Below the pieces are notes generated by a model. The model saw nothing but the letters and a program-made list of their open reading frames with translations, did not search any database and was not told the DNA's origin. Shown piece after piece: positions 1,757 through 34,657 of a stretch of 42,485 nucleotides of DNA (positions within the stretch are counted from its first letter, which is position 1; every line of letters starts with the position of its first letter). This stretch comes from a virus. The stretch covers positions 1 to 42,485 of the IMG/VR virus record IMGVR_UViG_3300009161_000089. The stretch is one strand, 5' to 3'. Both the position numbers and the translations under genes were made by a program.

Positions 1757-2104
1757 ATGAGCAAAACTATTATAAAGAACATTTATGCACTTGCCAACCA
1801 GCTGGATCAGGCCGGTCTATTCCGCGCTGCAGCTCACATGGATGCGGCAGCCGACCTGATAATCCTCGCCGAACAGGAAGTGAAGAAATCGATCCACGTC
1901 ACATTCAAGCGGGAAAAGGGCATGGTTGTATGTGAGCTGACTGTCCACGAGATGGAGAACCCGAATGCAATGGGCCCTGCGATCAAGTTTGTTGGCCAAA
2001 ACGTAAAAGCGGCTCGCAGTGCGGCCGCTAGCAAAATCGAAGAGCTCAAGAAAGAGCACAGTGCCGGCGTTGTCGAGTCGTTCGAGGGCGGACTAGAGCC
2101 CTGA
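1757..2104 (+). CDS. Small helical protein with the shared LDxxG signature
   Basis: This is one of the few plus-strand genes here. I chose the ATG at 1757 (MSKTIIKNIYALANQLDQAG), which has GGGG five bases upstream, giving 115 residues. Upstream in-frame ATGs at 1712 and 1724 would add 15 or 11 residues; 1724 has a weaker AAGG. Residues 9-30 carry the signature LANQLDQAGLFRAAAHMD. The rest is a short beta-like segment (VTFKREKGMVVCELTVHEM) and a charged helix. The 3' end overlaps the convergent gene at 2093-2470 by 12 bases, and a hairpin terminator lies just beyond the stop. No enzymatic motif is visible and the function is unknown. Confidence 0.65.
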   Translation: MSKTIIKNIYALANQLDQAGLFRAAAHMDAAADLIILAEQEVKKSIHVTFKREKGMVVCELTVHEMENPNAMGPAIKFVGQNVKAARSAAASKIEELKKEHSAGVVESFEGGLEP

Positions 2105-2470
2105 CCCCTTCTTGCGCATAGGGCAGATCATCAGCGGAACGCAATTGCGTTCCGCTCTCTTTAGAGAGAGGTCAAGAGTAGCCAGCGCCCCATAATTGCT
2201 GGCACCGCTTACGGCCCAGTCCATGAATTCGGCGCCACCAACATAGGGACTGGCTGCATTTATCTCAAATGAAATAAAGCCCGCAAGATTTCCTATTATA
2301 ATGCACTCCTCGTCAAAATCGCGGTCGGCAATTGCGGCCACGCTAGAAGCGAGATCGATCAGGTTCGGCTCGTAAGCGCTATTCTTAAAAAAACACTGAA
2401 GAGCGTACACTACGACTTCTGCCCGATGCTCCACAGAGCCCCAACGCCAGGCAGCACTGGAATGTTTCAT
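2093..2470 (-). CDS. Hypothetical protein, last gene of the thyA-folA operon
   Basis: The 125-residue protein has an ATG that overlaps the folA stop as ATGA (2467-2470), so it is probably translated by coupling. I do not recognise a family. The sequence has a hydrophobic, glycine-rich centre (CIIIGNLAGFISFEINAASP) and a basic tail (MRKKGSGL). No transmembrane helix, HTH or nucleotide-binding motif stands out. Its position behind thyA and folA suggests, but does not prove, a role in nucleotide metabolism. Its 3' end carries the terminator of the facing plus-strand gene. Confidence 0.6.
   Translation of the reverse strand: MKHSSAAWRWGSVEHRAEVVVYALQCFFKNSAYEPNLIDLASSVAAIADRDFDEECIIIGNLAGFISFEINAASPYVGGAEFMDWAVSGASNYGALATLDLSLKRAERNCVPLMICPMRKKGSGL
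2134..2162 (+). terminator. Intrinsic terminator lying inside the convergent gene
   Basis: GCGGAACGCA-AT-TGCGTTCCGC is a perfect inverted repeat at 2134-2155, followed on the plus strand by TCTCTTT. It lies 30 bases after the stop of the 1757-2104 gene but within the coding sequence of the opposite-strand gene 2093-2470. The minus-strand side has no T tract, so it should act only on plus-strand transcripts. Confidence 0.6.
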
Positions 2471-2919
2471 CGTGGATTCCTCGCATATCTAACAATGTCA
2501 TATTCGTCAGTTGACCGTAATGTTTCCGTGGCATGAAACATGTGTTGAAAACAGGGGAAGCGCTTATCGCCGTCAACTTCTTGCTTGACGTGGGTAATCA
2601 ACAGCTCATCACAATAGAATAGAAACTGCGCATACACCTCAGAACCACCACACAGGAAAACAAAACCCGAATCCGAGTGCGCCTCTGATAAGCTGCCGAT
2701 CTCCATGGGTCCGGATGGCGATCTCGTCAGAATATATGTTTTTCTGCCAGGAAGGGGACGACCTATAGAGTCGTAGGTAGCGCGCCCCATGACGAGAGCG
2801 TGGCCCAAGGTCACAGACTTAAACCAGGCCAGGTCTTCTGGTAAATGCCACGGCAGGGAGTTGCCGCGACCAATTACGCTGTTCTCTGATACTGCGGCTA
2901 TTCCAATCAGCTTGCTCAT
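2467..2919 (-). CDS. folA: Dihydrofolate reductase
   Basis: This 150-residue DHFR reduces dihydrofolate to tetrahydrofolate with NADPH, regenerating the cofactor consumed by thymidylate synthase. Visible family features are the N-terminal strand and Met20-type loop (IGIAAVSENSVIGRGNSLPW), HLPEDLAWFK with the acidic active-site residue, the NADPH-binding MGRATYDSIGRPLPGR segment, and GGSEVYAQFL near residue 90. The length is near the bacterial norm (about 160). The start ATG overlaps the thyA stop as ATGA (2916-2919), and the stop overlaps the next start the same way, so the genes are coupled. Phages commonly carry this pair to boost dTMP supply. Confidence 0.95.
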   Translation of the reverse strand: MSKLIGIAAVSENSVIGRGNSLPWHLPEDLAWFKSVTLGHALVMGRATYDSIGRPLPGRKTYILTRSPSGPMEIGSLSEAHSDSGFVFLCGGSEVYAQFLFYCDELLITHVKQEVDGDKRFPCFQHMFHATETLRSTDEYDIVRYARNPR

Positions 2920-3773
2920 ATCGCCATCTCAACCTTTGGTAAATCGGGATGGTGTGAGTATCCCACCATCTCTACGTCAGAGTACTGCAGAGCAAGCAAG
3001 TCATCTAGAGTAGACAGCTGCCTGTTTATGCGAAATTCTGGCAGCGGCAGCGGATCTCGAGTGACTTGGATCCTTGCGTTATCCAGCTGGTTTTTATACA
3101 GGTGTACGTCAGAGCCTTGGAACACAAGCCGCCCGGGACGATACCCGGCCAAGTTGGCAAGCGCATGTAGCAGGAAGCCATATCCTGCGATATTTGTCGG
3201 GTTTCCTAAATAGAAATCATTAGACCGCATCTGGAAAGACAGATTCAGTCTGCCTCCAGCGATCTGAACTGCCCAGCTTACATGGCAGGGCGGCAGAGCT
3301 GCCTCTGTCAAGACCTGCTGCGGATTCCAGTAACTAACGAAATGGCGGCGGCTGGATGGATTTGTTTTTATTCCAGAGACAATTGCGGCCAGCTGGTCGT
3401 AGCCGGAGCCAGCGTGGCTGCCATTGAAATTACGTAGCTGCCAGCTGTAATTCTTTCCTGCGTCACCTTCTAGCAGGTGAGCAAGTCCTTTTGCATCCAG
3501 GAATTCGCGAGTAGTGTTGCCCCTCCAGATATTTATTTTTTTCTGCTCAAGGATCTTTGAGTCTGTTTGTCCTCTGAGAAACCACATCATCTCTTCAAAT
3601 GCAATGCGGAATGCAATGCGACGAGTGGTCAGAAGGGGGAAACCATCGTCCATATCGAATACCATTTGAGCACCAAAGATGCCCCTGGTTCCAATCCCTG
3701 TGCGATCATCTTCAATATCAAACCCTTCATCAAGAATCTGGCGCATTATTTTTAGATAGGAAGCTTCAGTCAT
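2916..3773 (-). CDS. thyA: Thymidylate synthase (ThyA type), divergent active site
   Basis: This 285-residue ThyA-family enzyme should methylate dUMP to dTMP using methylene-tetrahydrofolate. The start is the ATG at 3773 (MTEASYLKIM), which overlaps the upstream stop as ATGA; a longer frame to 3860 has an unrelated basic extension. Seen: DRTGIGTRGIFG (R24 region), SSRRHFVSYWNP, the catalytic LPPCH (C163), RSND (D186), PTNIAGYG with the uracil-binding Asn (N194), and SDVHLYKN (H224, Y226). Odd residues: after PCH the usual aromatic-aromatic-Gln is SWA, and the Gln before RS is Met. The retained Asn favours dUMP over dCMP. A dUMP hydroxymethylase, an enzyme of this fold in some phages, remains possible. 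Confidence 0.9.
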   Translation of the reverse strand: MTEASYLKIMRQILDEGFDIEDDRTGIGTRGIFGAQMVFDMDDGFPLLTTRRIAFRIAFEEMMWFLRGQTDSKILEQKKINIWRGNTTREFLDAKGLAHLLEGDAGKNYSWQLRNFNGSHAGSGYDQLAAIVSGIKTNPSSRRHFVSYWNPQQVLTEAALPPCHVSWAVQIAGGRLNLSFQMRSNDFYLGNPTNIAGYGFLLHALANLAGYRPGRLVFQGSDVHLYKNQLDNARIQVTRDPLPLPEFRINRQLSTLDDLLALQYSDVEMVGYSHHPDLPKVEMAI

Positions 3774-4126
3774 CTGTCGACCTCTAGTTTCAGAGTTACC
3801 TCTCCGTGGTGCCTTATTGCATGGATAACGATGCCTGCGTTTCCGACAATAGCCTCCCATATCTCCTGGGTTCTGTCGTGCGACACCCTGGAAAACTCAA
3901 AGGTGCCCCATTCTGAGCAGCTTCCCGAGCCCGTATGACACAGAAAAAGGGTGGCGCTCATTTTGCCATTGGGCAGGAAACCGAGAATATCCACCTGGCG
4001 ATTATTAAACCGATATGTGCCTGGGTGCACAATGGTATCGTACTCAGGTGGCTGTGCCAAGTATCCATCCGCAGGGCGCAATTCCGCTACGCAGCTCTTG
4101 CGAAACAACAAGTCAAATAAACCCAC
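3770..4126 (-). CDS. Hypothetical protein, first gene of the thyA operon (GTG start)
   Basis: The 118-residue protein starts at the GTG at 4126, preceded by AGGTGA. I recognise no family. The sequence reads as a small mixed alpha/beta protein: a hydrophobic basic N-terminus (GLFDLLFRKS), then beta-like segments with PPEYDTIVHPGTYRF, a Cys-containing TLFLCHTGSGSC, and a C-terminal alpha/beta part. The stop overlaps thyA as ATGA, so it heads a four-gene coupled unit that opens behind the capsid gene's terminator. Placement suggests co-expression with nucleotide synthesis; no function is assigned. Confidence 0.6.
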   Translation of the reverse strand: MGLFDLLFRKSCVAELRPADGYLAQPPEYDTIVHPGTYRFNNRQVDILGFLPNGKMSATLFLCHTGSGSCSEWGTFEFSRVSHDRTQEIWEAIVGNAGIVIHAIRHHGEVTLKLEVDR

Positions 4127-4289: not shown

Positions 4290-5294
4290 TCAGGACTTGC
4301 GGCCGACGGCGACGCCGCGGGCGTTGACGATGCCGATACCGATGGTCTCGAATACCGTCCAGCCGAGGCTGAGGCGATCCATCTTGTCGTTTGGCACGAC
4401 TTCGACGTTCTGGCGGATTGGCATGACGCCGACCATGTCGGGCTCAGCGCAACCGAAGACGCTGCCGAAAGGAACAAGCTTGCTGACGATGATGTCGGCG
4501 GTGAAGAGCTTGGCGTAGAGGCCGGTCTGGAGGATCTCGCGGTGCGTGACGGGGTCGACTTCAGCAGCCGAGGTACCACCCTGTGACGTCCAGAGCAGGA
4601 GGTCCTGGAAGTCGCGGATGTTCATGAAGAACTTGCTGGTGAGCAGGTCCCACTGATCAACTTCTGACTTGATCTCAACCATGTCAGCGCGCGAGATGCG
4701 GGCGCCGAGAACCTGAGCGGTGTTCTCACCACCGAGGGCGGCGTCGCTGGCGAAGTCGAGGGCGGCGAAGAAGTTCGCGTCCTCAGTGGCAGCGATCTCC
4801 TGCTTGGCCTTTTGGACCGTACGCTCGATGACGTTAAAGCGGCGCTGACGGGCCTCGCGGATGCGGACGAGTGGGTGGCAGGCGATGTCGAACTCTGGAA
4901 CGAATACACGGTCGCCACGGACGGGGCTCTCTGGAACGGCGCCGTTCGCCGAAATTACGAAAGCCGCAACGTCGATGTCGCGCTCATAGAGGGGGAGGAC
5001 GCCGGTGGCGAGCTCGTCAACAACGAGGCCGCGGCGAGCAACGCCCGAGTAATCAAGGTTGCGGCGGATTGGGAGCGCCATGGCCTGAGCAAGAGCGACC
5101 TTGCCGCCCTGGTCGAGGATGGCTTGGCGAACGAGCTCGTCGCGCTGTGACTCGGTGGTCGAAGGACGGCCAGCGGCAACAGCGTTGGAGGGCATACCCT
5201 CCTCGAGGACCTTGGCGATGCGAACGAGACTCTTCAGCGCGTCGCGGGTGGTAAGACCACCGAGCTCGCCTGAATTATCAAAAAGATTTGACAT
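4290..5294 (-). CDS. Major capsid protein (HK97-type fold likely)
   Basis: The 334-residue protein should be the main shell subunit. The supporting pattern is an N-terminal helical region (residues 1-60), then RRGLVVDELATGVLPLYERD, a P-domain-like stretch (VPEFDIACHPLVRI...RRFNVIERT), a long helix rich in K/E, and the ending GWTVFETIGIGIVNARGVAV, typical of large-phage capsid proteins. It has its own leader (190 bases), SD CGGAG six to seven bases before the ATG, and its own terminator, as expected for a very highly expressed gene. It follows the decoration-like gene and lies downstream of the protease/scaffold. The N-terminus has LVRIAKVLE, a possible processing site. No decisive search was possible. 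Confidence 0.8.
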   Translation of the reverse strand: MSNLFDNSGELGGLTTRDALKSLVRIAKVLEEGMPSNAVAAGRPSTTESQRDELVRQAILDQGGKVALAQAMALPIRRNLDYSGVARRGLVVDELATGVLPLYERDIDVAAFVISANGAVPESPVRGDRVFVPEFDIACHPLVRIREARQRRFNVIERTVQKAKQEIAATEDANFFAALDFASDAALGGENTAQVLGARISRADMVEIKSEVDQWDLLTSKFFMNIRDFQDLLLWTSQGGTSAAEVDPVTHREILQTGLYAKLFTADIIVSKLVPFGSVFGCAEPDMVGVMPIRQNVEVVPNDKMDRLSLGWTVFETIGIGIVNARGVAVGRKS

Positions 5295-6281: not shown

Positions 6282-7937
6282 TCAGTTGCCTGCGAGTCTG
6301 TTTTGCCAGAGCTGCTCAAGATCATCCAGTTCTTCCCTGGTGGAAGCCTTCAAGATATCCTCTGTGACGTGCTTAGCCATATCAATGTGAAAGCCGATCC
6401 AGCGATTGCGTATCTTGCGAATCTTATCCATCGTCGACTCATCCCACTTACCGGTCTCTCGCACTCCCAGAAAGCCCTGAACTTCCTTTACGTGATCAGG
6501 ATTATTTACGTCGCTTTTTAGTTTCATAGGAAGGCCGAGCTCGGTCCTTACCCCATATCCAGTCGTGGCTCCAGATGAAATATCCTTCATCAACTGTGAT
6601 GCGCGCCCTTTCTGATCTTTTAATTGCGCACGAACAACATCAACCTGCGGACTAACGCTCGCAAGAAGTTCGTCCATCTCCCTTTCGAACTCTAGCACCG
6701 ATGCGTTGACGTCCGAAATGCGATTCCTGATCTTTGGAAATCCGAACCCTAGCGTATCTCGAGCCAGGGGCAGATCTAACTCGCTACCTACTTTCTGGAA
6801 GTTCGCAAACGCCTCGTCCAAAGCACCGTTAAACTCTGCGATACTCTCCATCGCAACACCTACGATAGCTGGGTCGAGCTGATCCCCTTTGCCAGCCTCG
6901 AGCCGCAGCTTATCTCTCGCAGCCCGTATGTCCTTTATTTTATCGCGCATAATCTCAAGGGACTCGCGAGCAACGGTAGCCTTGGCCTTTTTATCTGGAT
7001 CTGTTTGAGCACCTGGGTCGTATGAATCGGTAGAGAGCGCTGACGCGATATCTGCAGCAAGCTCGTCCAAATCTTTATCTATGTTGTCCTGCATAGTGGC
7101 AGTTAGAGCCGCACTGATTCCTGCTGTGACGGCGGATCCAACGCCAATTGCCGTCCACAATGGGGCCGTAGTCAGGCCAGCGGCAACTGCGCCGGCTCCG
7201 GCTGCTGCGCCTGCGCCACTGGTCGCCAGAGAAGCCCAATCACCGCTGCTGACGGAATCTATGACTGACCAGACACTTGCAACCAATCCCAGCGGGCCCA
7301 GGATTCGTCCGCCAAAGTCTTTTAGTTTTTTAAAGGCGCTGATAGATCTTTTCGCATCATATACGCCTGCCGCTGCTGAGGCAGCTGGCGGCGCGGCGGG
7401 TGGTGCCGTCATCGGCGGCGCGGGCGGCGCGTTCGGCGCGGGCGAAGTGACCGGCGCGGGCGGCGCCAGAAATTCTGGCAGCGCCGCGCCTCCAGGGGGG
7501 ACTTCTCCTAGATTAGGACTAGCTCGCCTTTGTAACACCGTAAGCAAATCCTGCGCGATTTTTCGCACAGCATCGGCTTCGTCATGTAGGTCGTGCGACT
7601 CGAGCGTCTCAGCAGTCTTCTCGAAGTCTAGCATTGCGTTCGCAACAAGACCCTGATAAGGGAAGGCGGAGGGGCGGCGGTTCAGGGCATTGAGAATCTG
7701 CTCGTGAACCTGCTCTGGATTTCCGACCATGCCCCCTAGGCCGTCGGACTCGGCAACGAATACCTCGCCCGGGTGAGCCTCCTCTACGATTGACTTTTCA
7801 TCGTTTTTGCGTGGGCGCTTTTCACGGATCGCCTTCTCTGTGTCGGCTGCAGCGGCAACGAGCTGCTGGCGTGCAGCGGCTCGCCTTTGTGCCAGATTTT
7901 TGGCAAACTCTTTTGCAATTTCATCAGCAATCGTCAT
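6282..7937 (-). CDS. Large internal/ejected virion protein with PG-binding-like C-terminus
   Basis: The 551-residue protein starts at the ATG at 7937 with SD GAGAGG. Order of parts: a basic coiled N-terminus; residues about 100-135 with a helical LESHDLHDEADAVRKIAQ resembling the shared signature; an Ala/Pro-rich linker (about 155-195); a long Gly/Ala hydrophobic region (about 210-285, with AAAGAGAVAAGLTTAPLWTA) that could insert in a membrane; helical rods; and near the end VQGFLGVRETGKWDESTMDK, matching the PG_binding_1 pattern (VQ..LG...TGKWD..T). Together these suggest a protein packaged in the virion and delivered into the envelope during infection. No catalytic residues are evident. Confidence 0.5.
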   Translation of the reverse strand: MTIADEIAKEFAKNLAQRRAAARQQLVAAAADTEKAIREKRPRKNDEKSIVEEAHPGEVFVAESDGLGGMVGNPEQVHEQILNALNRRPSAFPYQGLVANAMLDFEKTAETLESHDLHDEADAVRKIAQDLLTVLQRRASPNLGEVPPGGAALPEFLAPPAPVTSPAPNAPPAPPMTAPPAAPPAASAAAGVYDAKRSISAFKKLKDFGGRILGPLGLVASVWSVIDSVSSGDWASLATSGAGAAAGAGAVAAGLTTAPLWTAIGVGSAVTAGISAALTATMQDNIDKDLDELAADIASALSTDSYDPGAQTDPDKKAKATVARESLEIMRDKIKDIRAARDKLRLEAGKGDQLDPAIVGVAMESIAEFNGALDEAFANFQKVGSELDLPLARDTLGFGFPKIRNRISDVNASVLEFEREMDELLASVSPQVDVVRAQLKDQKGRASQLMKDISSGATTGYGVRTELGLPMKLKSDVNNPDHVKEVQGFLGVRETGKWDESTMDKIRKIRNRWIGFHIDMAKHVTEDILKASTREELDDLEQLWQNRLAGN

Positions 7938-11101: not shown

Positions 11102-11491
11102 TCAAGAAAGCTTTGCGGCGGCTTCGCGGAGCGAGGCGGCCTGCTTAAAAAGTCCGGAAGCGTCGGCCTGGTCTGCCACTACTCGCAACTGGTTAGCAAC
11201 CGCAGCAAGCTTTTTGCGCTTGCCCGCATCAAGCATCTTCATCGCTACGGCCTGGCGGTCCTGAGCGGTCATCACCGTCGCATCAATGCCATCGAGCTTT
11301 ACTGACTTCTTGTGAACATCGTCAAGCATGTCGCTAAAATAGGCCTCAGCGCGCTTGTTCAGTTCGGACTGAACGTCCACATCTGCACGGGCCTCTTCCT
11401 GTCGGAAAACGCTCCTTGGCATGGTGGTCTGCCCAGCCATCTTCTTTTGAACTTCTGCCAGTATACCGTCTACATCTACAAACTTAGACAT
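11102..11491 (-). CDS. Small virion-cluster protein ending in the shared LDxxG-type signature
   Basis: The 129-residue protein starts at the ATG at 11491, which overlaps the upstream stop as TGATG; a GTG one codon earlier is possible. The first 90 residues are charged and helical. The C-terminal 30 residues are the shared signature in variant form: LRVVADQADASGLFKQAASL. Related segments end the proteins at 12814-13023 and 34307-34657, which otherwise differ. This placement at the extreme C-terminus suggests a detachable module. Function is unknown. Confidence 0.6.
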   Translation of the reverse strand: MSKFVDVDGILAEVQKKMAGQTTMPRSVFRQEEARADVDVQSELNKRAEAYFSDMLDDVHKKSVKLDGIDATVMTAQDRQAVAMKMLDAGKRKKLAAVANQLRVVADQADASGLFKQAASLREAAAKLS

Positions 11492-12814: not shown

Positions 12815-13023
12815 CAGTCTTCTCCTAGCACGCTTACCATGTTATTAAGCAGCGCGTCGACCTTCCCAGCAAGTGGGCTACCGGCCTGATCGAGCTCGCT
12901 CGCAGTACCAGCTAGCTGCCGAGCAACTCCAGAAAAGTAACCAGCTTCTGGTGCTGGTGAGTTCTCTTTAATCGCCTGCTGCATGCCGGCTGCAATCTCA
13001 TCTGCAATATCAATTGTTGCCAT
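12814..13023 (-). CDS. Small protein with shared LDxxG signature
   Basis: The 69-residue protein starts at the ATG at 13023 (MATIDIADEI), preceded by GAGGAAG; the upstream ATG at 13035 lacks spacing for an SD. Residues 30-60 carry the signature in the form LAGTASELDQAGSPLAGKVD. The N-terminus MATIDIADEIAAGMQQ resembles the start of the 551-residue protein at 6282-7937 (MTIADEIAKEF), hinting at a shared binding site. It overlaps the downstream gene by one stop/start base and the upstream 47-residue gene by 14 bases. Confidence 0.6.
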   Translation of the reverse strand: MATIDIADEIAAGMQQAIKENSPAPEAGYFSGVARQLAGTASELDQAGSPLAGKVDALLNNMVSVLGED

Positions 13024-13314: not shown

Positions 13315-16300
13315 TCAGATATCGAACAGAGCCTTGCCGAGGCTGCGCCAGTCGCGGACATCAACGCTGCCCTTGTCGGAGGCAGTGCGGGTGTTCGACT
13401 CTCCGCCGTCAACTACACCCATCTGGGGGACGATGCCGGCGGTGCGGGCCTGTGGCTTGACGTTGCCAACCATGCGCTTGAAGCTGTCAAAGTTAGCGTC
13501 GTTGCCGGTAGCAAGGGTCTCCGCGCACTCGTCGAGAGCGGCGCGACCCTGGCTGATGAGGCCACGAGTCTGGGCGTCGATAGCAACCGCGTAAGCGCGC
13601 TTGTAACGGAAGCCGATATCCTCGTTTGAGCTAGCTGACTTCTTGAACTCCGAAACAAGACCCTTGGCGAACTCGCTGTCGACCTTGCCAAAGTACTCGC
13701 GGTAGTACTTAACCGCTTCGGCGTCAACGGCAGCTACGGCTACGAGGGCGTCGAGCTGCGACTCCTTGATCGTGCCCTGGCGTACGGCGGTGGCAATTCC
13801 GGCGGCAGCCTTCTTGACACCTTCCATGGCCTTCATCGCCATCTCCTGAGCCTCGAATACGCTCTGGACGTCTGAGTCGGCATCGCCGGTCGTCTTCATA
13901 CCGAAGTCGAGCTTGCCCTCGCCCTTGCCGTGAACATTGAGCATTGGATCAGAGCTGACCATGTCCATTTTGGCGGCGCGAGCAACGAGTTGCTGGCGCA
14001 TGGCGGCGCGCTTGGACATGTCATCCATAGCATCAGCCTCCTTCTCCTCATCCTCGTCCTCGTCCTCATCCATTTCTTCTACCTGCTCTGCGACGTCCTC
14101 GACCTTGTCCTCGAGGGCCTTGAGCTCTTCGCGAAGGTCGTCCAGAGCCTGCTCCAGGTCATCGTGAGATGGGTCGCCTTCGATGTGCTCATCAATGGCG
14201 CTCTCAACCTCTTCGGCTACCTGATCAAGCTCCTTGTCATCAAGAGCCATGGCGTCGTCCTCGGCGCAGGCATCTTGATACGCAGCAACGCGCTCATTTG
14301 CCTCGATTACGGCCAGGTGGCTGTCGCGAATCGCAGCGCGAGCGGCGAGACGAACGCTTGGGTCAGCCAGGTTGGCATCACGGGCGAGGAAGCGGAGTTC
14401 GCTAGCGAGTGAGTTCAGTGAAGCATGAGCTTCGAACATCCCGCGCTGCAGAGAGGCGGTAGCAGCCATTGGCGCATCTACGTCTACATCGCTAACACCG
14501 GCGTCATCACCAAGGACGGCAGATTTGAGGTCCGCAACGCAGCCTTCGAGCTTCTCAAGCGCGCCCATGACGCGATCCTTCATGTCATCAGCTTCTTTAC
14601 CAGGAGCGGGCTCGGGAGCTGGCTCGACCATTGGTCCTGGAGCGGGAAGCGCAGCCATGCCGGCGTCCGCGGGCGGAGCTGGCATCGGCGCGTCAGCAGC
14701 AGACTCTTTGGCGGCATCAAGCTCAGCTGCGAGCTTGGAGATGTTGCCCGCACGGATCTGAGCCATGAGCTGCTTGCCGTACTCTGGCGATACGAATAGT
14801 TCGCCCCAGGTCTTGCCGGCAACGTCGCTCTGCTTGTTGAGGTGAACATTGTAGGCGTCGCCAGCGGTAACGCTGAAGACTTCCTTGTCGCCTGCAAGTA
14901 CCGACCAGCGTGAGCGGCCGAGGTTGGCAGACTTCGTCAGGCGGGCCTTGAGGCCGGCGCGCTGAATGAGTTCCTTGACCTTTTGATCTGGATTGCCGAC
15001 CTTGGTGTCAAGCTCCTTGCCACCGAGGTGGTGATCGCCATCGCGCAGATCTGGGTCGCCCATAGGAGCATAAGCCTTTGGCTCCTCGGTGCCCTGTGGA
15101 TAAGCCTTCTTCTTCATGGGCTTGGCACCCTTTTCATTCGAATCCTTATCGCCCTTCATGGCCTTCATATCCTTCTTGTCTTCCTCTGAGTACTTCATAT
15201 CCTTTTTTGGATCCTTCTTGCCCTTCTTCTTGGCGGCTTCCTTTAGGATCTCGAGACGGCGCAGGAGATCGGCCTCGGCCTTCATCAGATCCTTGTCATC
15301 GGCATCCTGATCTTCTGCGTCTTCTGCGTGTCCATCGTCGGCTTTCGCAGCTGGAACAAATTTCTTATCGGCAATAACGCCGGCTGGCTTTCCAGCCATA
15401 TCCTTGACGACAACCGCTGCCTCGGCAATTGCCTTTAGCTTATGCGCGCGCTGCGCACGGCGCTCATCGAGCGAGGCGCGGTGCAGCATTTCCTTTACCT
15501 TCTGATCTGGATTAGCTACGGAAGTATCGAGCTCCTCGCCATGGAGGTGGTGGTCGCCATCACGTAGATCTGGATCGCCCATGGGGGCATAGGCTTTTGG
15601 CTCTTCTGTACCCTGCATGTAAGCTTTCTTACGCAGATTAGCACGCTTCCGTAGTTCATCAAACGTCATAATATCTCCTGTTCCCACTCCCGCCTTCTGG
15701 GTCGGGAGACACGATTTCAAACTATCCAAACTGTTTTTAATAGATGTTATTCTTTCTGAAATAGCATTAGAGTGTTTTTCGTACTCCGCTGCACCTTTTT
15801 TCAACGGAACATCCCTATACGCGGATGCTGCACCGAACAGGGCCCCCTCTGGAGGAGAGCCGTGTCCGCCGGATATGCTATTGCGACCAAAGAAGTCAAT
15901 CCCTGTGCCGGAGTTCTCGGTGCCGGTCGGATCAGCGGTCGCAGGCCCCCTGGTCCCTGTTCCACTAAGCGCATCAGCGCCCAGTGAAGAGGACCCTGTG
16001 GCGGAAGAAGGGCCAATGCCAACGGCATTGTCAGGTGCATTAAGCGCAAGCTCTGTAAGCTTGCCGATTGTCTCGGATGCCTTTCCAACCATGTCCTTGG
16101 AGTCAGAAAGATTCTTTATCCTTGATAAAGCTTCAAAAAGTTCCTCGCTCTTGTCTTCATTTGAGGCAACGATGGCTGAATGAATAGCATTCAGACCAAC
16201 CCGACCCACGTACTTGAAAAGGTCAGCCGACGCCATCTCTAGAGCACCAGTTGTCTCATCATTGGCCTTTACAAGACTTATCAGCTTAAACAGGCGATCA

Positions 16301-17223
16301 AGCGACACGTCCTCGGGCGGCGTCCCTCTCTCAATATCTTCCTGCAGATTGCCAATTTCGCCATCAACGGCAGCAAGCGCCTCAAGGGGAATGCCCTTAA
16401 TCTTGCGCAGAGCATCTGCCTGGGCGCGATACTCATCTAGGCTGGCAACAATTTTGCGAATCTTTGCACGCGGGTCTGCTCCCGTCACCACGATGCTGAG
16501 CTCGATTGGATTTAGGTCAAGGTTAATCTCGCCATAGTGCGTGCGCGCCTGGACGTGACCGCAGAACTCAGAGGCTACGGTGGCCACATTCTGACATTCG
16601 CTACAGATGGAGCGACCAACGGCAGTTCCCATTGAGACATTTGTGGCGTATCCAGCCTCTACCTTGCGGGCGAGGTCTGGGTAGTTCTTCTTGTCAAGCG
16701 CAAAGAGCGCGTGAACACGCTTGAACTTTGGGTCATAAAAAGTATCAACTATTACGCCCCGGATGCCATCGACTGAGCTTGAAACATGGTCCTTGCAGAG
16801 CGGCTTCCCGATCCAGTTTTTATAGGCCTTTAGAAGCTCGGTCTCTGGAAAAATATCTCCATTGTTATTCTTTGTCGGACGAATTCCATCCGGGCTGACC
16901 CAGCGAGCAGTCTCGCGACCACCTTCTGCATCATATCGCTCAAACCAACCCGCAACCGACTTGCCATCCGCGGTCTTGATAACCTCTCCGGTCTCCTGGT
17001 TGATGAGGGCCGACTCTGCGGCGTGCATCATGATGCAGCTGGCGTAAAGAAAGTCGTCAACATATGGCGACAACTCGGTGGCGCCGCGCTTCTTCTGTTC
17101 CGCTCGCAGCGTATCGGTTACGGCAGCAAATCGAGCATGCACGGCCGGGTCATCGTTCAGCTTCGCATTGTCAACAATTCCCAAGGAGTTGCCTGCGATA
17201 AACCCACTCTTGATAATGCTCAT
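13315..17223 (-). CDS. Prohead maturation protease fused to scaffold-like region
   Basis: The 1302-residue protein starts at the ATG at 17223 (ATGA overlap). Residues 1-260 resemble a capsid maturation protease: NGDIFPETELLKAY, GKPLCKDHVSS (H146), TNVSMGTAVG (S197) and IELSIVVTGADPRAK (E241). These give the His/Ser/Glu set expected for HK97-type (S78-like) proteases. Within this domain a Cys/His knuckle (C207, C210, C221, H223) is unusual. Residues 260-520 are helical with a Ser/Gly/Thr linker. Residues 519-1302 look like scaffold: highly charged, with two 52-residue repeats, an Ala/Pro linker, coiled coils and an acidic run (DEDEDEDEE). It should cleave scaffold, and perhaps capsid and internal proteins, inside the prohead. 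Many such genes are half this size. Confidence 0.75.
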   Translation of the reverse strand: MSIIKSGFIAGNSLGIVDNAKLNDDPAVHARFAAVTDTLRAEQKKRGATELSPYVDDFLYASCIMMHAAESALINQETGEVIKTADGKSVAGWFERYDAEGGRETARWVSPDGIRPTKNNNGDIFPETELLKAYKNWIGKPLCKDHVSSSVDGIRGVIVDTFYDPKFKRVHALFALDKKNYPDLARKVEAGYATNVSMGTAVGRSICSECQNVATVASEFCGHVQARTHYGEINLDLNPIELSIVVTGADPRAKIRKIVASLDEYRAQADALRKIKGIPLEALAAVDGEIGNLQEDIERGTPPEDVSLDRLFKLISLVKANDETTGALEMASADLFKYVGRVGLNAIHSAIVASNEDKSEELFEALSRIKNLSDSKDMVGKASETIGKLTELALNAPDNAVGIGPSSATGSSSLGADALSGTGTRGPATADPTGTENSGTGIDFFGRNSISGGHGSPPEGALFGAASAYRDVPLKKGAAEYEKHSNAISERITSIKNSLDSLKSCLPTQKAGVGTGDIMTFDELRKRANLRKKAYMQGTEEPKAYAPMGDPDLRDGDHHLHGEELDTSVANPDQKVKEMLHRASLDERRAQRAHKLKAIAEAAVVVKDMAGKPAGVIADKKFVPAAKADDGHAEDAEDQDADDKDLMKAEADLLRRLEILKEAAKKKGKKDPKKDMKYSEEDKKDMKAMKGDKDSNEKGAKPMKKKAYPQGTEEPKAYAPMGDPDLRDGDHHLGGKELDTKVGNPDQKVKELIQRAGLKARLTKSANLGRSRWSVLAGDKEVFSVTAGDAYNVHLNKQSDVAGKTWGELFVSPEYGKQLMAQIRAGNISKLAAELDAAKESAADAPMPAPPADAGMAALPAPGPMVEPAPEPAPGKEADDMKDRVMGALEKLEGCVADLKSAVLGDDAGVSDVDVDAPMAATASLQRGMFEAHASLNSLASELRFLARDANLADPSVRLAARAAIRDSHLAVIEANERVAAYQDACAEDDAMALDDKELDQVAEEVESAIDEHIEGDPSHDDLEQALDDLREELKALEDKVEDVAEQVEEMDEDEDEDEEKEADAMDDMSKRAAMRQQLVARAAKMDMVSSDPMLNVHGKGEGKLDFGMKTTGDADSDVQSVFEAQEMAMKAMEGVKKAAAGIATAVRQGTIKESQLDALVAVAAVDAEAVKYYREYFGKVDSEFAKGLVSEFKKSASSNEDIGFRYKRAYAVAIDAQTRGLISQGRAALDECAETLATGNDANFDSFKRMVGNVKPQARTAGIVPQMGVVDGGESNTRTASDKGSVDVRDWRSLGKALFDI
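14956..15111 (-). repeat. 52-residue repeat, copy 2, in the scaffold region
   Basis: This encodes residues 705-756: KKAYPQGTEEPKAYAPMGDP and the same following motifs as copy 1. The two copies are 173 residues apart, separated by a Lys/Asp-rich helical segment (KKGKKDPKKDMKYSEEDKKD). DNA divergence at synonymous sites shows the duplication is not recent. Confidence 0.85.
15475..15630 (-). repeat. 52-residue repeat, copy 1, in the scaffold region
   Basis: This encodes residues 532-583: KKAYMQGTEEPKAYAPMGDP, then DLRDGDHHL, ELDT and NPDQKVKE. It is matched at about 80-85% amino-acid identity by copy 2 at 14956-15111. Each copy begins with a basic K-K-A-Y and is followed by a basic helix. Confidence 0.85.
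15667..15682 (-). promoter_or_regulatory. Internal ribosome binding site for a separate scaffold product
   Basis: Inside the protease gene the minus strand reads ACAGGAGATATTATG: a near-consensus SD (AGGAG) five bases before an in-frame ATG at 15669 (residue 519, MTFDELRKRANLRKKAY). Translation from here would give a 784-residue scaffold-only protein ending at 13315. Lambda C/Nu3 and several other phages make scaffold from an in-frame internal start in the protease gene. The site falls exactly at the protease-linker/scaffold border. Confidence 0.6.
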
Positions 17224-18631: not shown

Positions 18632-19521
18632 GAATACCTCGACAGTATCTGTCCCATGATATAGGAGATCTGGGCTGCGTCTAGGCCTGACAGCAGGTTC
18701 TTTAGTAGTCCGAATACCGCGCCGATGCCAGCCGACGGGTTCTTTCTTTTCTGAGCAAGATCGGTGCCTACCTGACTAATTTTACGAATTATGCTCTGCT
18801 TAAAGCTCGCCCGCTTCTCGGGAGATACTCGACTGACCATGTAGCCAATTAGAGCGCCAACGCCGTTGATTATTTGCTCGGCATCAATCTGGTCGGTAGC
18901 ACTTTTTATTAGCGCCGCATCAAGGAAATCTGCTGCCGCATAGTGGCCGCTGGCATCTGCCAGGTGAGCGATGCGTACTATGTCTGCAGAGCTGGACGCT
19001 GCCTTCGTGAATTTCTCAAAATCCTTAGGATTTGCCTTTATTTTCTCTTCAAATAGGTGGGCAAACCTCTGCTCTTCGGCAAGGGCAGGGTTCTCACCGC
19101 CCTGGAACTTCGATTTTATGTGGGCGGCCTCATGGCAAAGGGTTGAAGCCATTTGAAAAGCCCGCTCCAGCGGAATTGACGCAAATTCGCGCTCTATCCT
19201 GTCTGCAGAGATGTATATTGTCTCTGGATCATTAGACAAGACCTGGCCATAGTGGTGCGTCTGGCCCGCCTGTACGACTATTTTCTTAATTCCTGAGAAA
19301 TAGCCGGAGCCCATGACCTTTTCTGCAAGATCAATTCCATCTTGAACGTATTTTTCGTAAGGCTCGATCACTATATTGGCGGCAGTTTTGTTCATATTCT
19401 TGAAAATATGCATGACCAATGGCCAATCCTTCTTGCCCGGCTTGCGACCGGACTGGGACTTGAAGGCTTTCTTTGCCCTCCTCCAGGTTTTTTCCTGTGC
19501 CTTGCTCAGATACTTGGGCAT
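18628..19521 (-). CDS. Zinc metallopeptidase-like (HEAAH) protein with shared signature
   Basis: The 297-residue protein starts at the ATG at 19521 with SD AGGAG. Residues 6-45 (SKAQEKTWRRAKKAF...WPLVMHIFKNM) form a short helical module of a type I associate with large-phage virion proteins. Residues 128-134 are LCHEAAH, the HExxH zinc motif; a Glu at 149 or 150 (ALAEEQRFAH) is a plausible third ligand, as in gluzincins. Residues about 183-205 carry IAHLADASGHYAAADFLD, the shared signature. The C-terminal 90 residues are helical with hydrophobic patches. It probably hydrolyses protein or peptide bonds; the substrate is unknown. No signal peptide is visible. It is followed directly by the M23 gene's relatives in the same operon. 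Confidence 0.6.
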   Translation of the reverse strand: MPKYLSKAQEKTWRRAKKAFKSQSGRKPGKKDWPLVMHIFKNMNKTAANIVIEPYEKYVQDGIDLAEKVMGSGYFSGIKKIVVQAGQTHHYGQVLSNDPETIYISADRIEREFASIPLERAFQMASTLCHEAAHIKSKFQGGENPALAEEQRFAHLFEEKIKANPKDFEKFTKAASSSADIVRIAHLADASGHYAAADFLDAALIKSATDQIDAEQIINGVGALIGYMVSRVSPEKRASFKQSIIRKISQVGTDLAQKRKNPSAGIGAVFGLLKNLLSGLDAAQISYIMGQILSRYS

Positions 19522-20621: not shown

Positions 20622-22475
20622 TTACATCGGCGGCAGCGGAGGCTCCGCTCCACCAGGCGGCGGGCCAGCGCCCATGTCCGGCGGCAGGCCGGCGCCCATG
20701 TCAGGGGGCGCGCCTCCTTCTGCCCCCGTCTCTGCTCCTACTCCTGGGAGCGGTGCTTCGTCCTTCTCTATGATAGGCGCATCCGGATCAAGCGTACGCA
20801 ACTCAGAAAGCGACATCTTTGCAATTGCTGCCATTTCTTTTGCGAGAATAGCCATCTGGATGGTCTCTTTGCGCTGATTGGCTAGCTCATCCTGGAAGTC
20901 CAGCCCGAGGCTGCGATACACGGTGCCACGGCTAACCCCAACGGGAGTAGTAGGAGGCGTTTTTTCTATAAGGTTGAGCAAATGCCCGATGTACGTATCA
21001 ACATCGTACAGGGTCATCTGATTCCACTCTACATCGGGCAACACCAGGTGCTTCTGGCCGTCGATTGTCTCGTAGAAATCATTGGCCTCGGCCATTGGCG
21101 CGAAGATCTTGTTTACGAGCCAGTTGGTCATCTTCGTACGGAAGTTGTTGTACCTCTGACGGATAACGTCTAGCGCCACCGACGCCGACGCATACGAAGC
21201 GCCTTCCTGCGTAATAACTGCCTTTGGCACCATTAGGCCGATGAAGATGTTATCCAGGATAAAGTTCAGGTCGGCGGAAATGTCAAGAATGCCGCCATTG
21301 AAGCCGACTCGCTCAATCGTAACGTCGGGATGGGTAAATACCTTGAAATCCTTATCATACTGAGCGTGCTCAAATACATCTCGCATGGCGGCGAGCTCTT
21401 CCTGGCGCGGATAGTGGCCCTCGGCATTCGATGCACCAACCTTTACCAAGGTCATCGGATTTACCATTGCGTCGGCCTGGATAAACTTATTCTCGCGGAA
21501 AAGATCCCATAGAACGAGATCCTTCCATACCGAAACGATGACAGAAGAGCCGTGCGTATTGTACGCAGTTGACTCGTTCTTCAGGTGGCTGATATTAAAG
21601 TTGTCGAGCGGAATGTACTCGTTGCGAGCAATTGCATCTAGTAGGCCCGGATCCATTTTGTCGCGATAGGCGCGGTGAACAGGGTCGTTTGACTGGACAA
21701 TCTGCAGCAGCTTGGGGTCTGGCTTGAGCGCAATGATAGACTCACCAGGCACGGGCGTGCGCTTGACGACTACATAGTCCGGATTGTGGCAGTATACCTT
21801 TGACCACATGTTGCGAGTCTCGTCATACTCGGCGTATGGAAAGACCTCGCCAATCATCCAGTACTCTAGCGCCACCTGCTGTACCACGTTAAACAAATCA
21901 ACCCGCTTTGCCATCTCGAGATACTTTCTCTCGATCTTCTTATCCTTGCACTTGATAGTCATCTTGCTGATTGGATAAGTTGCGTGTAGATTTATAGCGT
22001 TGCGAACCAGGGGATTGGTCTCGTAAAATGCACGATTCCATGCATTTGCCGTGATGCGGTCACGCGGCAGCTGCAGATTTGCCGTCAGGAACAGCGGCGA
22101 GTACAGGTTTGGCATCATATTGGTCGTGTTGCCACGACCTGCGATGTGCAGCTGGCCGCCTAGCTCCGAAGCGGCGGCGGTCTTGATGAGGCTCTGTCTA
22201 CCCGCAGCAACGGCAGTCCCAAGGGCAATCCGGGAATCGCCGCCGACGGCGCTCTTTTTCAAGATCTCTTCTTCAACCTGGGCGCGGCGCTCAGGTCCAA
22301 GTGATCGCAGCGCGGCCTCGCTAATAGCAAGCTCACGGGTACGCTCGGGGACCGAGACGTTAGAGTAAGCCGGTGGCCGGTAAGGCGTCTTGCCGTCAGG
22401 TCGGGATGCAAGAGCGAGCGGTTCGGGAGGAGCTTGCCAGTCAACAGTTCCCCATTTGTTGTGATTATCTGCCAT
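20622..22475 (-). CDS. Portal protein
   Basis: The 617-residue protein should form the dodecameric ring at the capsid vertex through which DNA is packed. It begins at the ATG at 22475 with SD TGAGGT, eight bases after the terminase stop. Family-like features: NAWNRAFYETNPLVRNAINL, EYWMIGEVFPYAEYDE, NPDYVVVKRTPVPG, LKNESTAYNTHGSSVI, ISADLNFILDNIFIGLMVPK and VALDVIRQRYNNFRTKMTNW, which match large-phage portals. The tail after residue 560 is a low-complexity Gly/Pro/Met repeat (PPDMGAG units). LKKSAVGGDS and LIKTAAASELGG near residues 75-105 are possible processing points. Order terminase-portal-protease is the usual one. Confidence 0.88.
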   Translation of the reverse strand: MADNHNKWGTVDWQAPPEPLALASRPDGKTPYRPPAYSNVSVPERTRELAISEAALRSLGPERRAQVEEEILKKSAVGGDSRIALGTAVAAGRQSLIKTAAASELGGQLHIAGRGNTTNMMPNLYSPLFLTANLQLPRDRITANAWNRAFYETNPLVRNAINLHATYPISKMTIKCKDKKIERKYLEMAKRVDLFNVVQQVALEYWMIGEVFPYAEYDETRNMWSKVYCHNPDYVVVKRTPVPGESIIALKPDPKLLQIVQSNDPVHRAYRDKMDPGLLDAIARNEYIPLDNFNISHLKNESTAYNTHGSSVIVSVWKDLVLWDLFRENKFIQADAMVNPMTLVKVGASNAEGHYPRQEELAAMRDVFEHAQYDKDFKVFTHPDVTIERVGFNGGILDISADLNFILDNIFIGLMVPKAVITQEGASYASASVALDVIRQRYNNFRTKMTNWLVNKIFAPMAEANDFYETIDGQKHLVLPDVEWNQMTLYDVDTYIGHLLNLIEKTPPTTPVGVSRGTVYRSLGLDFQDELANQRKETIQMAILAKEMAAIAKMSLSELRTLDPDAPIIEKDEAPLPGVGAETGAEGGAPPDMGAGLPPDMGAGPPPGGAEPPLPPM

Positions 22476-25414: not shown

Positions 25415-25423
25415 CTGCTTTCT

Positions 25424-25455
25424 CCATAAACACAAATCCGGCTATTGAAGCCGGA
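25424..25455 (-). terminator. Hairpin between the 169-residue gene and terL
   Basis: On the minus strand TCCGGCT-TCAAT-AGCCGGA is followed by TTTGTGTTT and then the terL SD. The T tract is broken, so this may be a partial terminator or attenuator that lowers terL expression relative to the genes upstream. Confidence 0.55.
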
Positions 25456-27795: not shown

Positions 27796-28495
27796 GGTGC
27801 AGCATCCTCTGGCGAGCCAGCTCTCTCATCACAAGCTTAGTAACAGGTATGTGCTTGATAAGGTCGTGCTCACACAGCCAGTTGACTATTTCAGGATTTT
27901 TTCGAATCGCATCATTTATGATTCTGCCAGCATGCCTGTGATTAATCTTTTCAATTTTATGGAACTGCTTGATCAGCTCGTCCTCAAGCTGCTGCTCTGG
28001 CCGCATTCCTTCTGCGATGTATTTTATCGCCCTCAGGAGCCTGACCGGATCGCGAAACGTAATCTCGGGACTCAGTGGGCATCGCAGGGTTTTGCTCTTT
28101 AAATCTTCCAGTCCGCCACAGATATCAAGAAAGTGACCATCGTCGCAGGCGATCATCATCGTATTAATTGTGAAATCTCGGCTGTACAGCTCGGATGCAA
28201 ATGCCCCGTCCTTGTGCTCTATGTAGAGCATGTGCGGGCCAAAGTCCAGTTCTGTACCATCCACGATCATCTTCTTGGCGCCGCTGCCTGTTTCATAGAC
28301 TGGCACGCCAAAGTACTCGGCAACCAGATCTGCCAGAACAATATTGTCCGGACTGCCACAGGTAATGTCATAGTCAACCGGGTCAGCGCCGGCTATCATA
28401 TTTCTAACTGCCCCGCCAACTATAAAAGGCCTAGGCAGACCATTGGCTGCTGCTAATGATGCCACCTGCTTCATTATAGAGGCAACGGTTTTCAT
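27788..28495 (-). CDS. CCA-adding enzyme / poly(A) polymerase-like nucleotidyltransferase
   Basis: The 235-residue protein belongs to the class II tRNA nucleotidyltransferase/poly(A) polymerase family. Seen: FIVGGAVRNMIAG (G-G signature), VDYDIT (D-x-D type metal ligands, with Tyr before the first Asp pair), SRDFTINTM, LDICGGLEDLKSKTLRCPLS and FRDPVRLLRAIKYIA. It is shorter than bacterial CCA enzymes (about 400) and lacks most of the C-terminal domains, keeping the catalytic head and part of the neck. Start ATG at 28495; a TTG at 28501 is possible. It may repair tRNA 3' ends or tail RNA during infection, but which nucleotides it adds cannot be read. Its position among virion-cluster genes is odd. 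Confidence 0.82.
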   Translation of the reverse strand: MKTVASIMKQVASLAAANGLPRPFIVGGAVRNMIAGADPVDYDITCGSPDNIVLADLVAEYFGVPVYETGSGAKKMIVDGTELDFGPHMLYIEHKDGAFASELYSRDFTINTMMIACDDGHFLDICGGLEDLKSKTLRCPLSPEITFRDPVRLLRAIKYIAEGMRPEQQLEDELIKQFHKIEKINHRHAGRIINDAIRKNPEIVNWLCEHDLIKHIPVTKLVMRELARQRMLHHV

Positions 28496-28497
28496 TA

Positions 28498-29868
28498 TCA
28501 AACCTTGGGTGCTTGGACGGGCGGCGGTGTAGCTGGCGTGGCTAATTCTGTAGTGCCCTCAGATGCTTTCGGAGGAGCTGGCTCGAGTGCCTTGACGAGC
28601 GGAAGGTCTTGAGGCCTCACGACCGTTTTAACAGCAGTGGGAGCCATCTTTGGAGCCGTCTGCTGCTGGAGCTCTGCGCGTAGTTTGCCGACCAGGTCGT
28701 CAATCTTATTCGCTGAGCCGTTGAACGCTTCCATCAGCTTTGCAGCAGCGTCACCGATCTCGGGCATATGGCCGAAGCCAAGATTAAAGATGTCGATATC
28801 TCTCGCTGACAGCTCCCTGATAATTGCGCGCTGGCGGAGGAAAGCCGAGATCTCTTCGAGCGAGCTGAGGACTGCGTCCAGGTCATCGGGACGGGAGATG
28901 GAGCCAGCAACCTTTACGAACGCCTCGTCCGGGGCAGCTATCTTGCGAATTACGTCAGCGCCCTCAAACCAATCGTTCTGCTCCGCAGTGAAAGCTACCT
29001 TCTCAATAACGTCCTGAAGGGTGGCAACCTTGAGCTTGCGGATGCTCTTTCGAAGAATGTTAAGGCTGTCCTCGACTGCATCAAACTGCTCTTCCTTGAG
29101 CAGATGGCGATATTTTTCTAGTAGTTTGTCTATAGCAAATGTACGCCCGACCATCTTGTCGCGCATATTCTTAAATTCTTCCGCAGACATCGGGTCGGTG
29201 TAGCGGTCGCGCGCTGGCTGCTCCACAGAGGCTTCCTGTGCAGGCTGCTTGCGCATGAACTCGTAGGCGAACGCACTGTCTGAGCCCTCGGGGCCGTATG
29301 CAACCTTTTTAATCAAAACGTCCTCCTGGGCACTCAGGTAGCCTAAATTCCTACCGGACTTGTACTTCAATCCATACCAGGAAAGGAAGGCCAAGCGGTC
29401 ATCCATGTCTAGGTCAGAAATCACTCTACGAATCGCGTCTGCCTCTAAAACGCCCAAGGATATAAGGCTTGCCGCCCGAGACGCCAGAGAGGGGAAATCC
29501 TTTCTAATACCCGTATATACAGCTGTATCTACCCGTATAGGATAAGCTTCTTTCTTTAATCCCTTACCCAGAGAGAATGACAGGGTCCTATTAGGATCCT
29601 TGCTCTTGCCTAAGATTGACACTAACCCGTTCGCTATTTCTCTTAGGGTACTCACTTCTGATCTAACAAAGTGGCTTAGCAGATCCTCGTACTCTGACTC
29701 TGATAGCTTTGTGTTTAGATGTCTGAGGGAATCAGTCAGGACTCTATCTAGGAAGAGGAACTTCACCAGGTCCTGCTTTTTGACTCCACATCTTTCCGCT
29801 TTAGCAGAAATGCCCTTCAAGCACTCCAGCATCTCGTCGTCAAGTTTGTCTTCTGTGAAATTAAACAT
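28498..29868 (-). CDS. Hypothetical helical protein with Pro/Ala-rich tail
   Basis: The start is the ATG at 29868 (MFNFTEDKLDDEML) with a strong SD GGGAGG; the ATG-like start at 29883 is worse. The 456-residue product is helical. It contains many hydrophobic-K-x-A segments (LKKEAYPIRV, LIKKVAYGPE, IEKVAFTAEQ, FVKVAGSIS), a degenerate relative of the shared signature (AEQNDWFEGADVIRKIAA), and ends in a Pro/Ala/Thr tail (about residues 405-456). No catalytic motif was found. The pattern suits a structural or internal virion protein, possibly processed. Confidence 0.5.
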   Translation of the reverse strand: MFNFTEDKLDDEMLECLKGISAKAERCGVKKQDLVKFLFLDRVLTDSLRHLNTKLSESEYEDLLSHFVRSEVSTLREIANGLVSILGKSKDPNRTLSFSLGKGLKKEAYPIRVDTAVYTGIRKDFPSLASRAASLISLGVLEADAIRRVISDLDMDDRLAFLSWYGLKYKSGRNLGYLSAQEDVLIKKVAYGPEGSDSAFAYEFMRKQPAQEASVEQPARDRYTDPMSAEEFKNMRDKMVGRTFAIDKLLEKYRHLLKEEQFDAVEDSLNILRKSIRKLKVATLQDVIEKVAFTAEQNDWFEGADVIRKIAAPDEAFVKVAGSISRPDDLDAVLSSLEEISAFLRQRAIIRELSARDIDIFNLGFGHMPEIGDAAAKLMEAFNGSANKIDDLVGKLRAELQQQTAPKMAPTAVKTVVRPQDLPLVKALEPAPPKASEGTTELATPATPPPVQAPKV

Positions 29869-30613: not shown

Positions 30614-31144
30614 TCACTTGCTGAATTCGATTTGTTGTCGCAGTGGCCGGAATCTTTCGCTGCCGGCTGGTGTTTGTGCAGACACCGACCCTCCAACATA
30701 CTTGGTTCCGTCATCCAAGACAAATCCCTTGTGAAAATCGTAAATCTTGTCAGTTACCGGATCGCGATAAACGCCATCCGACACACGAAGCAGCTGAACT
30801 CCTGGTAGGTCGGGTGAGTGACGGGTGCTGAGGCTGGCGCCGATGTCGCCAAGCGCGGAACGATTGGGCGGGAGCATCTCTGTGCTGCGGCGTTTTGGTG
30901 GATCCCAGAATGCCTCCGGGTTCGATGCAAACTTGCCCAGTACGCGATCCAGACGATCAGCCGCAACGCGGTGACCGTCAGCATCAAGGGCATCTGCAAA
31001 CCCGGCTACGAGGCCTGCAACACGGCGCAGATCGTCTGTGTCGTAAGCAGCAAAGTCTAGGGCCGCGGCAGCGAGGGTGTCCTCGTCTGTGCCAGACTCA
31101 TCAAGGCTACTGATCTCTTGCTCAAGTTTTGCGATTTTCAGCAT
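30614..31144 (-). CDS. Hypothetical protein with shared LDxxG signature
   Basis: The 176-residue protein starts at the ATG at 31144, three bases after the upstream stop. Residues 44-70 carry a clean signature: GFADALDADGHRVAADRLDR. The first part is an acidic helix. The C-terminal 90 residues are beta-like with LPGVQLLRVSDGVYRDPVTD and DFHKGFVLDDGTKYVGG, resembling a small structural domain. A possible processing site MLKIAKLEQ is at the N-terminus. The two-part design, helical module plus beta domain, suits a virion protein carrying a targeting tag. Confidence 0.55.
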   Translation of the reverse strand: MLKIAKLEQEISSLDESGTDEDTLAAAALDFAAYDTDDLRRVAGLVAGFADALDADGHRVAADRLDRVLGKFASNPEAFWDPPKRRSTEMLPPNRSALGDIGASLSTRHSPDLPGVQLLRVSDGVYRDPVTDKIYDFHKGFVLDDGTKYVGGSVSAQTPAGSERFRPLRQQIEFSK

Positions 31145-34255: not shown

Positions 34256-34256
34256 C

Positions 34257-34290
34257 TACTAAATATCTCGAACGATAAGCAGTTAGCAAG
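34257..34290 (+). promoter_or_regulatory. Putative phage promoter upstream of the 116-residue gene
   Basis: TACTAAATATCTCGAACGAT then AAGCAGTTAGCAAG aligns with TACTAAATATATTGTATTAT before the 41870 gene (the first 10 bases are identical). The GCAAG element follows as in the other copies. The ATG is at 34307, with CCGGAG upstream. Confidence 0.45.
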
Positions 34291-34306
34291 CTATCCGGAG
34301 TAAAAA

Positions 34307-34657
34307 ATGGCAAAAGGAAAAGATAACGAGTGGATGCAAGGGGCGGTCAGCCTAGAGGAAAAAGGTGAGCTACACAAGAAGCTTAAGATCCCGGAAGATA
34401 AGAAGATTCCGACCTCGCTTCTAAAGAAGAAAAAGAAAGAGCTGCAGGAGAGGGCAGAAGGCGACAAGAAGCTGACAAAGGCTGAGCGCGAGCTGCTCGG
34501 TCAGATTCAGTTTGCACTTAATGCTCGCCAGAGCCGCAAGGCATCACTCATGAGTGAGCTGGTCAAGGTTGCCGCTGCGCTTGATTCTGCTGGCCAGCGT
34601 GACGCCGCCGACCAGGTCGACGCCGTATTGGATCTTGTTTCAGAAACCGAATTCTGA
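34307..34657 (+). CDS. Basic protein ending in the shared LDxxG signature
   Basis: The 116-residue protein starts at the ATG at 34307 with SD CCGGAG. The first 80 residues are highly charged and Lys-rich (IPEDKKIPTSLLKKKKKELQ, EGDKKLTKAERELLGQIQFA), suggesting nucleic-acid contact. The last 35 residues hold the best copy of the signature: VKVAAALDSAGQRDAADQVD, ending AVLDLVSETEF. An SRKAS segment precedes it. It is flanked by a promoter-like motif and a bidirectional terminator, so it is probably monocistronic. Candidates include a packaged DNA-binding protein; unproven. Confidence 0.6.
   Translation: MAKGKDNEWMQGAVSLEEKGELHKKLKIPEDKKIPTSLLKKKKKELQERAEGDKKLTKAERELLGQIQFALNARQSRKASLMSELVKVAAALDSAGQRDAADQVDAVLDLVSETEF

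Follow-up and report, generated by a model that had tools for sequence, protein, structure and literature searches.

Bacterial microcompartments send unrelated cargo into their protein shell by means of encapsulation peptides, which are terminal amphipathic helices. In phage T4, the internal proteins are described as diverse defence proteins that have only the capsid targeting sequence (CTS) in common (PMC3012670). The CTS of IPI-III and Alt is an N-terminal propeptide of 10-20 residues that brings these proteins into the scaffolding core and is cut by gp21 (PMC3012670, PMC5694885). The ejection proteins of SPN3US and phiKZ carry long N-terminal propeptides, for which inner-head targeting was proposed, and among such giant-phage propeptides an identical 15-residue N-terminus is found in two diverged paralogs (PMC5694885). 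ArdC-N and metallopeptidase domains occur in polyvalent proteins, which phages and conjugative elements encode and which are predicted to be packaged and injected (PMC5512222). The element considered here is a 32-residue helical hairpin (the tag) present in otherwise unrelated proteins of the linear virus record IMGVR_UViG_3300009161_000089, whose whole stretch of 42,485 bases is called the window, and of related giant phages. It is a mobile protein module under protein-level selection, separable from its hosts and linked to the head operon.

The consensus of the tag is hhxxLxxhAxxLDxxGxxxxADxhDxhhxxhA, and in an alignment of 81 whole tagged proteins conservation is confined to it (L5, A9, D13, G16, A21 and D25). 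It is predicted to consist of two short amphipathic helices meeting at the invariant glycine: AlphaFold2 places a helix-turn-helix with its turn at this residue in both of the two proteins modelled, with moderate to low confidence, and in the peptidase encoded at 18628-19521 the helices span residues 176-190 and 194-205. The tag is an unnamed module, in neither Pfam nor PHROGs: no family of either covers the tag segments of tagged proteins, and phrog_2499 and DUF7273 overlap the tag of one relative only, weakly (E 0.05-0.07). In a sequence search of PDB chains no solved structure was found to carry the tag, the top matches (E 0.018) covering half of it in a designed repeat protein; a literature search by motif letters returned irrelevant medical papers only.

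An earlier note, made from the letters of the window alone, had proposed a helical signature without a named domain, shared by unrelated proteins at their C-terminus, N-terminus or middle. All nine segments that it quoted are present at the positions and strands it gave. A post-hoc regular expression matches the window seven times against 0.64 expected, and none of 2000 shuffles reaches seven; two of these matches, one in the capsid protein and one in the protease, resemble the tag only by chance. A hidden Markov model (HMM) built independently, with 54 tags from distant lineages only, was scored on the 43 window proteins and ranks 34307, 30614, 1757, 12814 and 18628 (proteins are named by their first coordinate) as 1-5. 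Its best match reaches 19.4 bits (independent E-value, iE, 1.6e-6), compared with a maximum of 7.8 in 200 shuffled proteomes; only 34307 is clearly above shuffled noise and the other window tags are at or below it. The remaining window tags, including that of 11102, are secured through close or intermediate relatives in an iterated profile. A profile made from five segments of the window picks up further, independent copies in relatives but matches no reversed or shuffled protein. Iteration of the HMM across 13 records from related giant phages, with a cut-off of iE 0.01, recovers 105 copies in 99 proteins and none in the reversed proteins. An early iteration had wrongly included G3_19081, and this protein was dropped from the profile as a false positive.

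It is possible that such a pattern reflects a generic helical repeat like the tetratricopeptide repeat (TPR), since its G-x4-A spacing is like that of a single TPR hairpin and its fold is simple, or that it is a chance amphipathic similarity. Both ideas are largely refuted and very improbable. Neither TPR nor any other repeat family appears among the Pfam matches of the 81 tagged proteins at E 0.01. In the final iteration no reversed match falls below iE 1, 200 kb of Escherichia coli gives no match at iE 1, and the same specific residues are conserved throughout the 81 proteins.

Six window proteins carry the hairpin, and a degenerate copy lies in a further one, 6282-7937 (Table 1). The tag of 12814 aligns only with a one-residue gap, and that of 11102 ends in LR, without the final LD. 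Three looser relatives had also been suggested in the earlier note. The one in 6282 is supported, since its orthologs G3_9590 and G12_369 carry strong copies and the hairpin lies at the same place in G3, G12 and G13; those in 28498 and 11491, although conserved and helical, are not supported by the HMM. In proteins of at least 64 residues, 56 copies are N-terminal, 19 C-terminal and 29 internal (n=104), so that 75 of the 104 are terminal against 22 expected. The genomes are uncultured contigs, several of them fragmentary, and genes were called with our own script, leaving some starts uncertain; at least three tags that look internal probably belong at an N-terminus whose start was mis-called.

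G001 (G1), a 371-kb relative with window synteny and about 70% nucleotide identity, served as the first genuinely external test; it encodes 16 tagged proteins genome-wide, mutually unrelated once the tag is masked. The same phage (L038-L041, G1_3884 to G1_76758) has an 18-member family of about 90 residues with a hairpin-like N-terminus, MKLxxxxMxxAxxxxDWxxAxxxxxxHFG. Further large-phage contigs were reached by word scans with different tag subsets; 18 of 18 additional records have copies, the records themselves having been picked by motif. There are 20 copies on a 223-kb contig, 15 on a 317-kb contig and 13 on a 121-kb contig, and in some contigs tagged genes make up as much as about 10% of all genes. 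In G33, G35 and G36, runs of many consecutive genes start at Met1 with a sequence like MIKELIKLANELDSRGLAKEADYLDSIIKKAA and then diverge completely. Longer array neighbours (G35_146899, G33_65428, G36_5536, G36_10298 and G35_158351) have degenerate hairpin starts below HMM detection; the tag counts are therefore probably low estimates. The 11 reference phages searched (some 3 Mb in all, with phage G, T4, phiKZ, SPN3US and P-SSM2 among them) yielded no match at E 0.1, and tblastn with one tagged protein, able to detect close copies only, found none in 50,697 phage and 72,556 plasmid records. Two word scans covering the genomes of 84,980 cellular species, likewise sensitive to close copies only, returned 413 and 152 matching words, of which none was confirmed; a cellular origin was rejected at this sensitivity.

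With the tag masked, the 99 tagged proteins fall into 72 unrelated host families. Within genomes, tags average 33-50% amino-acid identity and 44-57% nucleotide identity, and their fourfold-degenerate sites agree at 0.29-0.46 against 0.28-0.32 by chance. Such near-random synonymous sites beside conserved residues indicate selection on the peptide and old copies. Recent tandem duplication was rejected on the nucleotide identities, and a DNA-level element or promoter cassette was discarded because the copies are synonymously saturated and only ordinary ribosome-binding sites, with nothing in common, are seen upstream by eye. The position of the tag changes between lineages. In the 30614 family, the members from the window and G001 have a single N-terminal tag and those from G22 and G36 have three C-terminal ones; the G35 member has no tag, its neighbouring gene being tagged instead. 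The HEAAH peptidase 18628 has its tag after the catalytic domain in two divergent lineages, and in G13 it is fused straight to its neighbour without a tag. The gene immediately upstream of the terminase is tagged in G20, G21, G22, G35 and G36 and untagged in the window and G1. Could this be a domain spread by recombination with no function for the host, selfish or neutral? Frequent gain and loss and variable placement would fit, but residues kept despite near-saturated synonymous sites, and clean placement at termini and domain borders, make such spread very improbable.

The tag is also tied to the head. The minus strand of the window carries a head operon (capsid protein, protease/scaffold-like protein, portal and terminase), and in six records, with block limits set by hand, 17 of 127 genes in the head block are tagged (13%) compared with 42 of 1296 elsewhere (3%; P 5.6e-6). 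Sister giant phages, almost tag-free genome-wide, have a related hairpin in two to three consecutive small genes beside the protease; the seeds for this sister-clade hairpin were first noticed as weak tag matches. In G20, G35 and G36 the gene beside the protease has two tandem hairpins. Window protein 12814 and its G13 counterpart occupy the same protease-adjacent place, the positional counterparts in other lineages carry a hairpin, and a related hairpin is present in a protease-adjacent small head protein in every lineage where the gene could be examined. Aligned with hhalign to two dialects of the head hairpin, the tag reaches probabilities of 94% and 81% (scores 27.9 and 21.6), with shuffled-column and reversed controls at or below 13, and the next-best matches of the A8 profile, made from the tandem head hairpins, are mostly tags. 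The tag may derive from the hairpin of small protease-adjacent head proteins or have common ancestry with it.

Recognised domains are few in the 81 tagged proteins: DUF5591, DUF7178, DUF5661, peptidoglycan-binding, ArdC-N anti-restriction and tRNA nucleotidyltransferase. The tagged peptidases are HExxH proteins, and for 18628 Foldseek gives minigluzincin-like matches of high probability and poor E-values. None of the tagged proteins was recognised as a DNA polymerase, helicase or RNA polymerase. Most of them are small and have no more than one recognised domain, and many are acidic orphans. In G22, G33, G35 and G36 they seldom have relatives elsewhere; in G35 a homolog elsewhere was found for 0 of 15 tagged and 200 of 302 untagged proteins. 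Membrane targeting was rejected, transmembrane-like segments not being in excess among tagged proteins. In G35_155144 (L215:15144-15653) the tag is directly followed by a lipoprotein-like signal ending in cysteine, IAPIMIALCFAVAATGASGC. A second short box, KKIAADRNYR, is common to six proteins of tagged phages that otherwise differ, and occurs in no reversed protein (G35_156259, G35_161007 and G35_161293 on L215 and L216, G33_22682 on L225, G36_1508 on L236 and G22_104712 on L193). It stands directly after the tag in G35_161293, and G35_156259 resembles helix 1 of the tag joined to the box, as if the hairpin had been deleted.

What would such a module be for? The earlier note had suggested docking to a common partner that packages internal proteins, and this remains the best-supported reading, if indirectly, through head-block enrichment, the protease-adjacent hairpin and the host domains. 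Metallopeptidase and ArdC-N domains are typical of packaged or injected proteins, and orphan hosts with one conserved element match the T4 internal proteins; both favour the packaging of cargo. The hairpin would be the binding part of a prohead-core protein, copied onto unrelated cargo at the N-terminus, the C-terminus or a domain border. Tagged proteins would bind a common core component, for which the protease/scaffold fusion is a candidate, become enclosed in the head and probably be delivered into the host with the DNA. We regard the chances as about even that the hairpin docks cargo to the prohead core in the manner of the T4 CTS. Somewhat more tentative is the proposal that these phages use a swappable tag of head-protein origin to sort a large and quickly changing repertoire of anti-defence and takeover proteins into the virion, and that the tag so reveals injected effectors from sequence.

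Alternatively, the tag may dock proteins to a partner outside the virion (host RNA polymerase, the ribosome, or a phage adaptor or compartment) for takeover or anti-defence recruitment, the copies in the head operon being secondary. Arrays of small, acidic, fast-turnover orphan genes do resemble early takeover gene clusters, and a protein with an ArdC-N domain is tagged. The hairpin is, however, oldest and most widespread in protease-adjacent head proteins, including those of sister lineages that lack the tag elsewhere, and the head block is enriched in tagged genes, so that we consider this alternative unlikely. Less probable still is homotypic assembly, in which tagged proteins would cluster by the pairing of their own hairpins, two of them making up a four-helix bundle, and would need no separate receptor. 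A hairpin of two helices with a single hydrophobic face would usually need a partner, several proteins have two or three copies, and the protease-adjacent head proteins have tandem ones. The AlphaFold2 model of a three-tag protein (mean pLDDT 49) is too uncertain to judge tag-tag packing. Homotypic pairing would be compatible with cargo docking if the receptor were the head protein's own hairpin.

Several observations weigh against docking to the prohead core. No isolated phage carrying the tag was found among the 11 reference phages or by tblastn of phage records. The head operon does not contain the largest tag arrays. The cleavage motif [ASLTVI]xE is not enriched after N-terminal tags (0.044 against 0.041 per residue), a consensus that may not be that of this protease. 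In G22, G33, G35 and G36 the tagged proteins exceed the others in acidity, and in this they differ from T4 internal proteins. Finally, a tRNA nucleotidyltransferase, not an obvious cargo, is tagged; in G33 this enzyme is fused to a long extension with the tag at its end.

Table 1. Tag copies and head-operon landmarks in the window.
Feature	Position	Strand	Remarks
Tag, C-terminal, LMSELVKVAAALDSAGQRDAADQVDAVLDLVS	34547..34642	+	Protein 34307-34657, residues 81-112; independent HMM iE 1.6e-6
Tag, N-terminal, IIKNIYALANQLDQAGLFRAAAHMDAAADLII	1769..1864	+	Protein 1757-2104, residues 5-36; HMM
Tag, VAGLVAGFADALDADGHRVAADRLDRVLGKFA	30926..31021	-	Protein 30614-31144, residues 42-73; HMM
Tag, SSADIVRIAHLADASGHYAAADFLDAALIKSA	18898..18993	-	Protein 18628-19521, residues 177-208, between HExxH peptidase and C-terminal domains
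Tag, C-terminal, VARQLAGTASELDQAGSP-LAGKVDALLNNMVS	12832..12927	-	69-residue head protein 12814-13023, adjoining protease gene
Tag, C-terminal, VANQLRVVADQADASGLFKQAASLREAAAKLS	11105..11200	-	Protein 11102-11491, residues 98-129; weaker
Degenerate tag, AMLDFEKTAETLESHDLHDEADAVRKIAQDLL	7542..7637	-	Protein 6282-7937, residues 101-132
Major capsid protein	4290..5294	-	Landmark; 44% identity to phage G gp27
Prohead protease fused to long acidic scaffold-like region	13315..17223	-	1302 aa; phrog_2774 6e-17, phrog_18299 head maturation protease 5e-12
Portal protein	20622..22475	-	Head-operon landmark
Terminase with intein	22484-25435	-	LAGLIDADG domain in intein

Other genes of the window complete the picture of the locus. 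The terminase intein has a full-length match at the same site in G2 and G13, and the G1 and G26 proteins are shorter and intein-free. A gene for an M23-like metallo-endopeptidase (19594-20202) is flanked in the head operon by the portal and the tagged HEAAH peptidase genes, and a homolog of the CCA-adding tRNA nucleotidyltransferase (27788-28501) lies within the operon at a position kept in most related records. Proteins 2-889 and 34723-37770 have a common N-terminus and long ESARAAGDAALATSL repeats and are probably fibres or adhesins; protein 41735-42484 has cadherin-like repeats.

As a cargo-docking tag, the hairpin would be a cargo-sorting signal not described before. Sequence normally does not tell which phage proteins are packaged and injected, and uncultured giant phages are the hardest case; if the proposal is true, the tag singles out dozens of candidate injected effectors in each genome, mostly without a recognised domain, and could be used to load foreign proteins into very large phage heads. 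Packaged or not, a single unnamed module on up to 10% of a virus's genes needs explaining.

How does the tag compare with the known systems? Microcompartment encapsulation peptides are single helices of unrelated sequence in a cellular setting, whereas the tag has two helices and belongs to phages. Polyvalent proteins are large and combine at least two effector domains, whereas most tagged hosts are small and single-domain; the passages considered on polyvalent proteins describe no such hairpin (PMC5512222). The propeptides of SPN3US and phiKZ likewise come from giant phages, but their sequence differs and the tag profile has no match in either. The T4 CTS is similar in being one conserved element on otherwise diverse proteins, with many copies N-terminal and a link to head genes (PMC3012670, PMC5694885). 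It differs in that the tag is a 32-residue hairpin that can be N-terminal, C-terminal, internal or tandem, with no cleavage consensus seen.

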